This document shows, piece after piece, positions 31,784 to 50,181 of a stretch of 50,181 nucleotides of DNA (positions are counted from its first letter, which is position 1; each line of letters begins with the position of its first letter). The translations under genes were made by a program, and so were the position numbers. The stretch is taken from assembly GCA_029865325.1 (NCBI GenBank), contig JAOUHF010000005.1:1-50181 (forward strand), read 5' to 3'. The notes beneath the pieces were generated by a model. That model did not search any database, was not told where the DNA came from, and saw nothing but the letters and a program-made list of their open reading frames with translations. The DNA is from Thermoleophilia bacterium. Lineage in GTDB: Bacteria > Actinomycetota > Thermoleophilia > Gaiellales > Gaiellaceae.

Positions 31784-32101
31784 ATGGCAATCAACGTGAC
31801 AGAGGCGACATTCGAGCAGGAAGTGCTGAACAGCGAGACACCGGTGATCGTGGACTTCTGGGCCGAGTGGTGTGGCCCGTGCCATGCGGTCGCGCCCGTG
31901 CTCGAGAAGATCGCCGAGGAACGAGGAGACGGGATCAAGCTCGTCAAGGTCAACATCGACGAAGAGCAGGCCCTCTCGATCAAGTACGGAGTCATGTCGA
32001 TTCCGACGATGATCCTCTTCAAAGAAGGCGAGCCGGCCGCAGCAGCGGTAGGTGCGCAGCCGAAGTCTGCTCTCGAGCGCTCGCTGGGTCTCGCCGCCTA
32101 A
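31784..32101 (+). CDS. trxA: Thioredoxin
   Basis: A 105-residue thioredoxin. The redox site is FWAEWCGPCHAVAPVLEKI (Cys31 and Cys34), with the buried aspartate in VIVDFWAEW and the cis-proline in MSIPTMILFKEG. It reduces disulfides of cytoplasmic partners; ArsC in this window is one expected client, and peroxiredoxins are others. GAAAGGA about 14 bases upstream is the ribosome binding site, so this gene has a normal leader. Short inverted repeats and a 12-base-pair hairpin follow. Confidence 0.95.
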   Translation: MAINVTEATFEQEVLNSETPVIVDFWAEWCGPCHAVAPVLEKIAEERGDGIKLVKVNIDEEQALSIKYGVMSIPTMILFKEGEPAAAAVGAQPKSALERSLGLAA

Positions 32102-34022: not shown

Positions 34023-34403
34023 ATGGAGCGACGCCTCATCCCGGGGACAGGCGCGTACGAACCGATAGTCGGCTACTCGCGCGCGGTCGTCGCCGGCGAC
34101 AGAGTGCATGTCTCAGGAACAGCGGCGAACCCGCCGGACGGCTCGCCTCCGCCCGCAGACATCTACGATCAGACTCTCCTCTGCCTCGAGCTCATCGGCA
34201 CCGCGCTCGAGAAGGCGGGATCGAGCCTGGAGCACGTGGTGCGCACGCGGGTGTACCTCACGGATCCCGCCGACTTCGACGGCTTCGCGCGCGCTCACGC
34301 GAAGGTCTTCCGCGAGGTGAGGCCCGCCAATACGACCGTTCTCGCTGGTCTCTTCGATCCAGCATGGAAGGTGGAGATCGAAGTCGAGGCGATGATCTCT
34401 TGA
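34023..34403 (+). CDS. RidA-family (YjgF/YER057c/UK114) protein
   Basis: A 126-residue trimeric-type RidA protein. Members hydrolyse reactive enamine/imine intermediates such as 2-aminoacrylate released by PLP enzymes. Visible are the VHVSGTAANPPDG loop, the segment AGSSLEHVVRTRVYLTDPADFDGFARAHAKVF, the arginine in VVRTRVYL that binds the carboxylate in active RidAs, and the C-terminal KVEIEVEAMIS with the usual E-x-E-x-x-A. It overlaps the GCS2 ligase by four bases through a TTGA junction and is the first gene of a three-gene operon ending in the selenoperoxiredoxin. Confidence 0.88.
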   Translation: MERRLIPGTGAYEPIVGYSRAVVAGDRVHVSGTAANPPDGSPPPADIYDQTLLCLELIGTALEKAGSSLEHVVRTRVYLTDPADFDGFARAHAKVFREVRPANTTVLAGLFDPAWKVEIEVEAMIS

Positions 34404-35620
34404 GCACCGAAAACGGCGACAAGCAGGCGATTCCAGCCTCGATTACCGGAGACGTCAACGAGCCGCGGGCGAGCGTGCTCGAACACCAGTTCGGCGACGG
34501 CGATCCGTACACGCTCGGCGTCGAGGAGGAGTACCAGCTCCTCGACGGGGCGACGTTCGACCTCGTCCAGCACATCGAGACGATTCTGGCGGCGGTGAGC
34601 GGGCACGAGCTCGAGACGCAAATCAACGCCGAGCTCATGCAGTCGGTGATCGAGATCGCGACCCCCGTGTGCCGGAGTGCCGATGACGTTCTGCGCGAGC
34701 TGGTGAAGCTGCGGAGATACGTCATTGACGTCGCGCGGGAGAGGATCATGCGCGTGGGGTCGGCCGGGACGCATCCGTTCAGCCTCTTCGAGGCCCAGCG
34801 CATCACGGCCAAGGACCGCTACCGAGCCCTCATCGACCAGCTCCAGTACGTCGCGCGGCGCGAGCTCATCTTCGGGATGCACGTGCACGTCGCAGTTGAC
34901 GATCCCGAGAAGGCAGTCAAAGTCGTCAACGGCCTTCTCCCCCACCTGGCATCGCTGCTTGCCCTGTCGGCGAGCTCGCCGTTCTGGAGAGGGGAGCCGA
35001 CAGGCCTGGCGTCCAGCCGGCAAATGGTCTTTTCGGCGTTCCCGCGTTCGGGACCGCCGCCGCGATTCCGCGACTACGCCGACTACGCCGAGGTCGTGGG
35101 GCAGCTCGAGCGCTCCGGTTGCATCGCGGACTACACGCACATCTGGTGGGACATCCGCCTGCACCCGCGCCTCGGCACGATCGAGCTCCGGATCTGCGAT
35201 GCGGTCACGCGCGTCGAAGATGCCGTCGCGATCGCCGCGTACTGCCAGGCGCTCGTCAAGCAACTGTGCGAGCAGTACGAGGCGGGCGAGGAGATCCCCT
35301 CTTACCACCGGATCCTGACAAGCGAGAACAAGTGGCTCGCGGCCCGCTACGGCCTCGAGGCGCCCGTCATGGATCTCTCGACCGGAAGCCGAAACCGTGT
35401 ACCCGTCTCGCGCCTGATCCGGCGGGAGCTCGGCGAGCTCAGGCCACACGCGCAAGAGCTCGGCTCCGAACGCGAGCTCGAAGGAGTTCTCGAGATTCTC
35501 GCTCGTGGGAATAGCGCAGAACGCCAGCTCCGGATCTTCTCCAGGAACCGAGACGTCGTCGAAGTTGCCCGTGAGGTCGCGGACGCGACCGAGCGGCTGC
35601 CCGTTCTAGCCCAGGCATAG
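34400..35620 (+). CDS. Glutamate-cysteine ligase family 2 (carboxylate-amine ligase, YbdK-like)
   Basis: A 406-residue enzyme of the GCS2 family, which forms gamma-glutamyl amide bonds, in several members gamma-glutamylcysteine. Core motifs visible are YTLGVEEEYQLLD (about residue 36), SAGTHPFSLFEAQRIT, the FGMHVHVAVDDPEKAV segment with substrate His, SSPFWRGEPTGLASSR, and the WDIRLHPRLGTIELRICDA motif. The start is uncertain: TTG 34400 overlaps the RidA stop (TTGA), while ATG 34364 lies inside ridA. The sequence before residue 30 is poorly conserved. The stop abuts the peroxiredoxin ATG directly. A low-molecular-weight thiol role is inferred from family and operon. Confidence 0.88.
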   Translation: MSTENGDKQAIPASITGDVNEPRASVLEHQFGDGDPYTLGVEEEYQLLDGATFDLVQHIETILAAVSGHELETQINAELMQSVIEIATPVCRSADDVLRELVKLRRYVIDVARERIMRVGSAGTHPFSLFEAQRITAKDRYRALIDQLQYVARRELIFGMHVHVAVDDPEKAVKVVNGLLPHLASLLALSASSPFWRGEPTGLASSRQMVFSAFPRSGPPPRFRDYADYAEVVGQLERSGCIADYTHIWWDIRLHPRLGTIELRICDAVTRVEDAVAIAAYCQALVKQLCEQYEAGEEIPSYHRILTSENKWLAARYGLEAPVMDLSTGSRNRVPVSRLIRRELGELRPHAQELGSERELEGVLEILARGNSAERQLRIFSRNRDVVEVAREVADATERLPVLAQA

Positions 35621-36082
35621 ATGCTCCAAGCCGGCGATCGGGTTCCGGAGGTCGAGGTCTGGGCGGCGCCGCGCGAGGAACCGCAGCCGCTGAACGAGAT
35701 CCTTGGCCCCGGACTGGCGCTTCTCTGCTTCTACCTCTGGGATTGGTCGCCGACCTGAACGGACGAGCTCGTGCTCCTGCGGGACAGGAGCCAGGATCTC
35801 GCCGAGGCCGGCGTTCGACCGCTCGCTGTCTCTCGCGACTCCCCCTGGTCGCACCGGGCCTGGGCAGAGGTGCTCGGGGTCGATGTGCCGCTTCTATCAG
35901 ATTGGAACGCCGACGCGACTCGCGCTTTCGGTGTCGCTTTCGAGCCGCTCGGGATGGCGGATGTCCCCATCCGGTCGATGTTTCTCATACGGGACGGTCG
36001 GGCGATCGTCGCGGCCTGGATGCTCGGCCGTGAGCTACCGGACATCGACGCGGTGATCGAAGCGGCTCGCGCCGCGTCGTGA
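35621..36082 (+). CDS. Selenocysteine-containing peroxiredoxin (TGA at codon 46)
   Basis: A 153-residue AhpC/TSA-type peroxiredoxin-like selenoprotein. Reading TGA 35756-35758 as selenocysteine gives LCFYLWDWSPT-U-TDELVLLRD, where U replaces the peroxidatic Cys in the family's F-Y-P-x-D-W-S-P-x-C-T-x-E-L motif. The frame then continues normally through VRPLAVSRDSPWSHRAWA, VDVPLLSDWNADATRAFGV and MFLIRDGRAIVA, all typical of peroxiredoxins, to a TGA stop. One cysteine remains (Cys36) and none follows U, so it is a 1-Cys type and needs an external reductant. ATG 35621 abuts the GCS2 stop. A hairpin 21 bases after TGA is the likely SECIS. Without Sec insertion only a 45-residue stub would be made. 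Confidence 0.88.
35773..35791 (+). promoter_or_regulatory. Candidate bacterial SECIS hairpin in the peroxiredoxin gene
   Basis: GCTCCTG and CAGGAGC form a perfect seven-base-pair stem with loop CGGGA. The loop begins 22 bases after the TGA and has G at its second position, matching the spacing and loop-G rule for bacterial SECIS elements recognised by SelB. It is embedded in coding sequence. Confidence 0.65.
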
Positions 36083-47605: not shown

Positions 47606-50181
47606 CCGAGATGGTCGAGTTCACGCTCGACGGCCGAAAGGTCGACGCGAACGAGGGCGAGTTGATCGTCCACGCTGCAGCGCGCCACGGCACCTTCATC
47701 CCCACGCTCTGCCACGACGACAAGCTCGATCCGTACGGCGGCTGCCGTATGTGCGTCGTCGACGTCGAGGGCGCGCCTCGCCCGCTGCCGGCCTGCGCGA
47801 CCCGGATCACGGAGGGGATGGCCGTCTCGACCAACGGGCCCATCACCGACTTCCAGCGCACGCTGACCGAGATGCTCCTCTCCGAGCACCTGAGCACGTC
47901 CCCTGGCGGCCGCCCCAACGAGCTGCTCGACCTCGCCAACGAGCTCGGCGCCGAAGCGCCGTTCGTCCTCCCGGACGCGAAGCGCGAGGAATACGACGAC
48001 CGCAACCAGCTCATGGGCTACGACCCCGACGCGTGCATCCTCTGCAACCGCTGCGTCCGCTATACGCAGGAGGTCATGCAGTGCTCTGCGCTCTCGCTCG
48101 AAGGTCGTGGCGGGGACGCCCGGATCGTCCCGACCTGGGGCCTCTCCTGGCTCGACACCGAGTGCGAGCTGTGCGGGGGCTGCCTCTCGGTCTGCCCAAC
48201 CGGAGCGATCTACGAAAAGTTCGAGGAGGGCACGAAGGCCCCGGAGCGCAGCCTGGAGCAAGTTCGAACGACCTGCACGTTCTGCGGCGTCGGCTGCCAG
48301 GTCGACCTCAACCTCGACCCGCAGACAAAGCACATCGTCAAGGTCACCTCGAAGAGCGAGTACCTCCCGAACGAGGGCAACCTCTGCGTGAAGGGCCGCT
48401 TCGCATTCAACTTCGTTCACCACCCGGATCGGCTCACTCAGCCGCTCGTGCGTGGGGACGACGGGGAGCTCCACCCCACGACGTGGGAGCACGCGATCGA
48501 GACCACCGCCACCAGCCTCAAGAAGACCATCGCCGAGCACGGCTCGCAGTCCGTCGGCTTCCTCGCGTCCGCGCGCCTGACGAACGAAGAGAACTACCTC
48601 ATCCAGAAGCTCGCGCGCACCGGAGTCGGGACGAACTCCGTCCACTCCTGCGAATCGACCTGACACGGTCCAACTCTTTACGGCCTGGTCAGGTCGTTGG
48701 GCAGAGGAGCCAGCAGCAACTCGATCGACGAGATCGAGAACGCGAAGTTCCTGTTCGTGATCGGCTCGAACACAACCGAGGCCCACCCGGTGCTCGCGCT
48801 TCGCATCAAGAAGGCCGTGCGAAACGGCGCCACGCTCGTCGTCGCCGACCCGCGGAAGATCTGGCTCACGAAGATCGCGAAGCACCACCTCCAGCTGCGG
48901 CCGGGGACGGACGTGTGGCTGCTGAACGCGATGATGCACACGATCCTCTCCGAGGGTCTTCAGGACGACGACTACATCCGCGACAACACGGACGACTTCG
49001 ACGCCGTCCGAGAGGTCGTCATGCGGTACTCGCCCGAGGACGCCGAGAAGGTCACCGGAGTGCCGGCAGCCGAGATTCGCGCAGCCGCACGCGGCTATGC
49101 GGAGGAGCGGCACGCCGCGATCTTCTACACCCTCGGGATCACCGAGCACGCCTGCGGTGTCGACAACGTCTGGTCGCTCTCCAACCTCGTCCTGATGACC
49201 GGCCACCTCGGCTACGAGTCGACGGGACTGAACGCCCTTCGTGGACAGAACAACGTGCAGGGCCTGAACGACTCGGGCGCGAACCCGATGTACCTCCCCG
49301 GCTACCAGTCGGTCGACGACCCCGAGCTCAGAAGGAAGTTCTCGGAGGCATGGGGCGCCGAGGTGCCCGAGACCCCCGGGTACCGGCTCGACCAGATGAT
49401 GAGCGGACTCCACGACGGCCGCGTCCGGGCACTCGTCCTCATCGGTGAGAACCCCGCGCAGACCGAGCCGAACGCCCGCCATGTCGAGGAGGGGCTCGGA
49501 AAGCTCGATTTCCTGATCTCGCAGGACATCTTCCTCCACGACATGACGCGCAAGTACGCGGACGTCGTGCTCCCCGCGTCGAGCTTCGCCGAGAAGGACG
49601 GCACGTTTACGAACACCGAGCGCCGCGTCAGCCGGGTGCGCAAAGCTGCGCCGCTTCCGGGTGAGGCGAAGCCCGACCTCGAAATCATCCTGCTGCTCGC
49701 GAAGGCACTAGGCGCACACTGGCCGGAGTACCCGGACGCGGAGTCGGTCTGGAACGAGCTCGCGGACCTCGCGCCTGCCTGGTACGGCGTCCGCTACGAC
49801 CGGCTCGAGGAGAACGGCATGCAATGGCCCGCTCCGGAGATCGGTCATCCGGGGACGAAGTTCCTGCATGCGCCGCGTCCGGCGCGGCCCCCTGGCAGAG
49901 GAAAGTTCTTCCCGGTCGAATACCAGCGGCCGATCGAGGAGCCCGATTCCGAGTACCCGCTCGTCCTCTCGACCGGCCGAACGCTCTACCACTACAACTC
50001 GGCGACGATGACGATGCGCGAGTCGGGGATCAAGGACAAGCAGGAGGATCCGTTCTTCGAGATCTCCGCAGAAGACGCCTCCGTGCTCGGTCTCGGTGAG
50101 GGCGACTGGGCGCGTCTCGTGTCGAGACGCGGCGACCTCGAGGCCAGAACACACATCTCGGGACGGGTCTATCCCGGGCTT
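47602..50181 (+). CDS. fdhA: Selenocysteine formate dehydrogenase catalytic subunit (partial, runs off window)
   Basis: The 5' 860 codons of an NAD-linked molybdenum/tungsten formate dehydrogenase; the 3' end lies outside the window. The N-terminal NuoG-like part has a 2Fe-2S site (TLCHDDKLDPYGGCRMC...PACAT) and two 4Fe-4S ferredoxin sites (CILCNRC, CELCGGCLSVCPTG). The catalytic domain has its own cluster (TCTFCGVGCQVDL, NEGNLCVKGRF) and the molybdopterin folds. TGA 48661-48663, codon 354, reads as Sec in SCEST-U-HGPTLYGLVRSLG, the family's U-H motif; the frame stays open and conserved (NNVQGLNDSGANP, GENPAQTEPN, DVVLPASSFAEKDGTFTNTERR). A SECIS-like hairpin follows. GTG 47602 (GTGA overlap) or ATG 47611 is the start. 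Confidence 0.93.
48670..48700 (+). promoter_or_regulatory. Candidate bacterial SECIS hairpin in fdhA
   Basis: CCAAC (48670-48674) pairs with GTTGG (48696-48700) and GGCCT (48682-48686) with AGGTC (48691-48695), leaving the loop GGTC and a seven-base 5' internal bulge. The loop begins 24 bases after the TGA. The apical GGUC matches the loop sequence of the well-studied E. coli fdhF SECIS. Confidence 0.7.

Follow-up and report, generated by a model that had tools for sequence, protein, structure and literature searches.

A Thermoleophilia peroxiredoxin gene with an in-frame TGA that is almost certainly decoded as selenocysteine

Peroxiredoxins with selenocysteine (Sec) at the active site were first studied in Eubacterium acidaminophilum, according to a citation in PMC13188914. 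The sequence-only reading of the DNA analyzed here had described such proteins as known in a few bacteria. They are not rare, however, as a 2016 survey counts 91 of them in 78 organisms (PMC5029168). A 2026 review describes the motif PxxxTxxU as highly conserved; in a 2006 survey, the Prx family is defined by T/SxxU/C only, and five Cys-to-Sec events and no Sec-to-Cys event are recorded (PMC1794560).

We analyzed a stretch of 50,181 nucleotides from a Thermoleophilia bacterium (hereafter the window) that contains a candidate member of this family. Overall, our data support that the gene is a real 1-Sec peroxiredoxin. Its UGA codon 46 is almost certainly decoded as Sec, as some 90 related actinobacterial genomes share TGA at that position and genes for decoding it are present in this one. 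The features at the locus are as follows.

35621..36082, + strand: predicted Sec-containing peroxiredoxin gene (153 residues, AhpC/TSA fold; active-site set S43, Sec46, R118)
35756..35758, + strand: in-frame TGA, read here as selenocysteine (codon 46, peroxidatic position)
35773..35791, + strand: putative apical hairpin of a bacterial SECIS element (GCTCCTG - CGGGA - CAGGAGC)

The frame proposed in the sequence-only reading, from ATG 35621 with TGA at codon 46 through to 36082, was found to have correct coordinates. Its terminal stop is the TGA at 36080-36082, and the TGA at 35756-35758 is the sole internal stop. With that TGA translated as Sec, the product matched AhpC-TSA (PF00578) over residues 5-130 (1.8e-20, 73.6 bits against a Pfam cut-off of 26), and residue 46, the peroxidatic position of AhpC/TSA proteins, aligned to the invariant Cys of relatives, in agreement with the earlier claim that the TGA occupies the catalytic Cys position. 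The T/S of the T/SxxU motif is S43, three residues N-terminal of Sec46, and the proline of PxxxT/SxxU is missing, with L39 in its place. It had also been predicted that annotation would yield a fragment from 35771, and the table-11 ORF list of the window indeed gives just a 103-aa piece starting at GTG 35771. At the region's 68% GC, a frame of 107 codons has a chance of about 1 in 10 of staying open, so the openness of the frame is weak evidence by itself and it is the relatives that decide.

A first contig scan revealed two relatives with TGA at codon 46 (L009 and L010, with 67% and 55% identity, respectively) and eight Rubrobacter relatives (35-40% identity), all with Cys at the site. The search was extended to 399 class genomes, for which the site codons were read from the DNA. 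TGA was present at codon 46 in 78 distinct genomes, 67 of them from the bacterium's own family, 5 from another family of the order, and 6 from a further family of the class. Within the family and order, all 72 Sec loci have TGA at the site, and seven other loci have TGC or TGT. Elsewhere in the phylum, 12 further genomes have TGA exactly there, with different hairpins downstream. No site codon other than TGA, TGC, or TGT was seen among the class and phylum relatives searched. Upstream and downstream of the TGA alike, codons changed mainly synonymously, and the flanks are under purifying selection (downstream of the TGA, dN was 0.15-0.22 and dS 0.66-1.08 in comparisons with L009, L033, and L039). 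The conserved flanks noted earlier were also seen in the homologues, which keep the TGA between intact flanks and not as an isolated nonsense mutation, the opposite of the outcome that the sequence-only reading had named as refuting. Beside the intact TGA copy L108, one genome has a second peroxiredoxin copy (L104, G215:C105) whose site codon is TGC and whose frame is interrupted by a TAA; L104 is perhaps a decaying paralogue.

The seven-base-pair hairpin at SECIS distance that the sequence-only reading had pointed out was also confirmed. Its arms are at 35773-35779 and 35785-35791, its loop (CGGGA) is at 35780-35784, 21 nt after the TGA, and its fold z over 48 nt was -2.4; z was near zero for two other members. 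In the bSECIS model, one of the first two bases of a small apical loop is a G, often with a G or U after it, and the loop lies 16-37 nt from the UGA (PMC13188914); the window hairpin agrees with the model on both loop G position and distance. In most relatives the loop is CGTGA. Codons +6 to +10 after the TGA, encoding LLRDR, are near-invariant CTC CTG CGT GAC AGG in the 72 Sec genes. CGT and AGG are used in 69/72 and 71/72 at the hairpin codons, and elsewhere in the same genes they make up ~5% and ~4% of Arg codons. The Cys relatives have the same LLRDR in other codons, with R-D-R written as CGC/CGG GAC CGC/CGG. Across the alignment 94% of stem cells were paired, and only one pair had changes on both sides; with so little variation in the hairpin, evidence from covariation is thin. 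We consider the synonymous freezing of codons +6 to +10 to be stronger support for a SECIS element than base-pair covariation. Rfam, at gathering and lax thresholds, gave no bacterial SECIS match at the locus. When the genome was scanned with a covariance model built from the putative SECIS, the element here scored 67 bits and the next match 22, so that no other copy was convincing, and no selenoprotein was found in the neighborhoods.

The sequence-only reading had proposed a search for selA, selB, selC, and selD as a test that might refute it, and all four are present. The genome, a draft of 192 contigs that is 95% complete, has selA adjoining selB (Pfam SelA, SelB-wing_3, and SelB beta-barrel), a tRNA-Sec(UCA), and selD, all on contigs other than that of the window; the tRNA-Sec (anticodon tca) shares a contig with selA and selB. 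Among the 67 own-family genomes with the TGA gene, selA was found in 50. In those that are at least 90% complete it was found in 19/21 by hand count, one by a weak partial match. In the other 17 of the 67, selA was not found and selB was not above cut-off either, which is likely caused mostly by incomplete assemblies. Matches of ~200 bits to selB in genomes lacking selA were not accepted as SelB and were taken as EF-Tu-like, because the bacterium's own genome has one 195-bit match of this kind besides its true selB. The association between the TGA gene and selA across the family was modest (Fisher p = 0.016, uncorrected for relatedness) and was not used as main evidence. A second selenoprotein gene is present in the window:

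48268..50178, + strand: formate dehydrogenase alpha (TIGR01591, 725 bits, 1 TGA; cut at the contig end)

The in-frame TGA of this FdhA (48661-48663) encodes the U of the standard STUHGP site. A C-terminal FdhA piece was observed at G000:C21:2-280. Three genomes of the same genus (G045, G277, and G289) have selA with no Sec-peroxiredoxin match; in them the machinery may be maintained by a different selenoprotein, for instance FdhA.

Could the TGA be something other than a Sec codon? If this were an ordinary Cys peroxiredoxin gene hit by a nonsense mutation or a sequencing error, one base would be enough, as that is all that separates TGA from TGC or TGT, and the assembly is a draft. Such an event does not account for TGA at the same codon in ~90 independently assembled genomes, with a downstream part that shows no decay and then a frozen hairpin, and we regard this explanation as already refuted. 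It is also very improbable that the UGA is a genuine stop between two products, a 45-residue leader and a C-terminal protein that restarts at GTG 35771. The window does have this GTG 13 nt past the TGA, but the position is GAG in 47 of the 72 members and otherwise another non-start codon, and the preceding codon is ATG in 37, with the remaining members encoding Leu, Val, or Phe there. Two products would also split the Prx fold before its active-site helix; the Cys orthologues are one frame. We give similarly little credence to UGA being read through as Trp or another non-Sec residue, by reassignment or suppression. Nothing in the genome speaks for it, UGA also terminates genes there (including the peroxiredoxin gene itself), and the site aligns with Cys only. 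The presence of tRNA-Sec, SelA, SelB, and SelD, the SECIS hairpin downstream, and the FdhA Sec codon in its standard place all point to Sec instead.

S43, Sec46, and R118 correspond to the Ser/Thr-Cys-Arg set of peroxiredoxins. The Sec/Cys site at residue 46 and R118 were invariant in the alignments, and S43 and R118 are conserved in close relatives. The AlphaFold model of the window protein had a pLDDT of 96, and its nearest PDB structures were the small monomer-type peroxiredoxins Bcp4, BcpB, PrxQ, and the 1-Cys AhpE. The sequence-only reading had noted a single extra cysteine, Cys36, and had expected the enzyme to need an outside thiol. Cys36 is the only Cys besides Sec46 in the window protein, but it is unlikely to matter; it is not conserved among relatives and was rejected as a resolving residue. 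Apart from the Sec, most of the clade's Sec proteins contain no Cys, so they lack a resolving residue and need a thiol from outside. The codon, the frame, the hairpin, and the decoding genes are all conserved, and in the best reading SelA, SelB, SelC, and SelD insert Sec at UGA codon 46 under the direction of the intragenic SECIS hairpin 21 nt downstream. For the protein we infer a peroxidase cycle in which Ser43 and Arg118 would hold the Sec selenolate, which would reduce a hydroperoxide and become a selenenic acid, and an outside thiol would regenerate the Sec, there being no conserved resolving Cys.

It is unlikely that the protein is a selenoprotein with no peroxidase function, acting instead as a redox relay or thiol-disulfide exchanger. 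The loss of the motif proline in most of the clade, and of the motif Ser/Thr in three relatives outside the class, would fit such a role. S43, Sec46, and R118 are all present in the window protein, however, a second redox residue is absent, and the fold agrees with the 1-Cys peroxidases, which argues for the peroxidase.

The gene immediately upstream of the peroxiredoxin is a potential source of the reductant:

34364..35620, + strand: YbdK/GCS2-family carboxylate-amine (glutamate-cysteine) ligase (PF04107, 1.5e-60; NF010039 over cut-off)

The TAG stop of the ligase directly abuts the ATG of the peroxiredoxin, and the two genes are probable operon partners. A GCS2 neighbor was found at 26/60 testable own-family Sec loci and at 4/6 Cys loci; in Rubrobacter, a divergent GCS2 gene lies within about 1 kb of all 8 Cys relatives. 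Neither MshC nor GshB reached cut-off in this genome, and with MshC below cut-off mycothiol seems unavailable. A gamma-glutamyl thiol from the adjacent ligase is a reasonable, if speculative, guess at the reductant, and provides a testable one in an organism that seemingly has neither mycothiol nor glutathione synthesis. The thioredoxin encoded in the window at 31784-32101 is an alternative. A broader proposal is that Sec relaxes the active site, hence the loss in most Sec forms, from several actinobacterial families, of a motif proline that is near-universal elsewhere, and that the GCS2/YbdK gamma-glutamyl thiol reduces the enzyme. This would make it a glutathione-peroxidase-like system without glutathione or mycothiol; we consider the proposal unlikely.

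In the maximum-likelihood tree, six own-family Cys proteins fall within the Sec clade, in three separate positions (L034/L036, L041/L046/L062, and L078). L034/L036 and L078 are nested under well supported branches, and the exact place of L041/L046/L062 within the clade is not fixed. None of the six has the SECIS codons. The simplest reading of the tree is about three Sec-to-Cys reversions. Cys proteins stand between the first Sec group and the second, which comes from a different family of the class. This suggests either two gains of Sec or a larger number of losses; support for the deep branches here is only moderate. The motif proline is Leu in 69/72 of the clade (LxxxSxxU). Most Sec relatives outside the class lack it too, and it is kept in 16/16 Cys proteins outside the clade, although the loss follows clades and so represents a correlation with few independent events. 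At residue 39 (35735-35737) and in relatives L144-L155, the proline was observed to be Leu, Val, or Thr in most Sec forms, from several families. Outside the class, L152-L154 have Gly in place of the motif Ser/Thr.

These data indicate that a Sec peroxidase has probably been maintained across a whole actinobacterial family, in which gene finders that stop at the TGA would report a mere fragment. The Cys forms that appear to have arisen within the Sec clade, dropping the SECIS codons, potentially offer matched natural pairs for studying the benefit of Sec to a peroxidase. Our search of open papers on Thermoleophilia and Gaiella selenoproteins returned nothing relevant, and the surveys' supplementary species lists may already count some members. 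The spread of the gene through Thermoleophilia and its repeated return to Cys appear not to have been described before.

Judged from its sequence, the window protein is a Sec peroxiredoxin of known kind by fold, site, SECIS, and machinery. It has in common with the Sec peroxiredoxins of the surveys (PF00578, T/SxxU) an AhpC/TSA fold, a peroxidatic Sec, Cys homologues, and a downstream SECIS (PMC1794560, PMC5029168). Its group differs from them in being a large Thermoleophilia clade in which the proline is mostly Leu, the SECIS is nearly invariant, and Sec-to-Cys reversions have probably occurred. PrxU of Eubacterium (Peptoclostridium) acidaminophilum (NF040737) is likewise a Sec peroxiredoxin, but the window protein scored 37.6 bits against that model, which has a cut-off of 270, and belongs to a different subfamily. 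The best structural neighbors among small peroxiredoxins are AhpE of Mycobacterium tuberculosis and BcpB/Bcp4 (TM 0.84-0.88). AhpE also requires an external thiol, although all of these proteins have Cys where the window protein has Sec, and their identity to it is 23-27%. The Rubrobacter Cys peroxiredoxins (L011-L018) have the same active-site context, WSxxC, and a GCS2 gene nearby, as in the window; unlike the window protein, they keep the motif proline, have Cys for Sec, and have no such hairpin in their genes.
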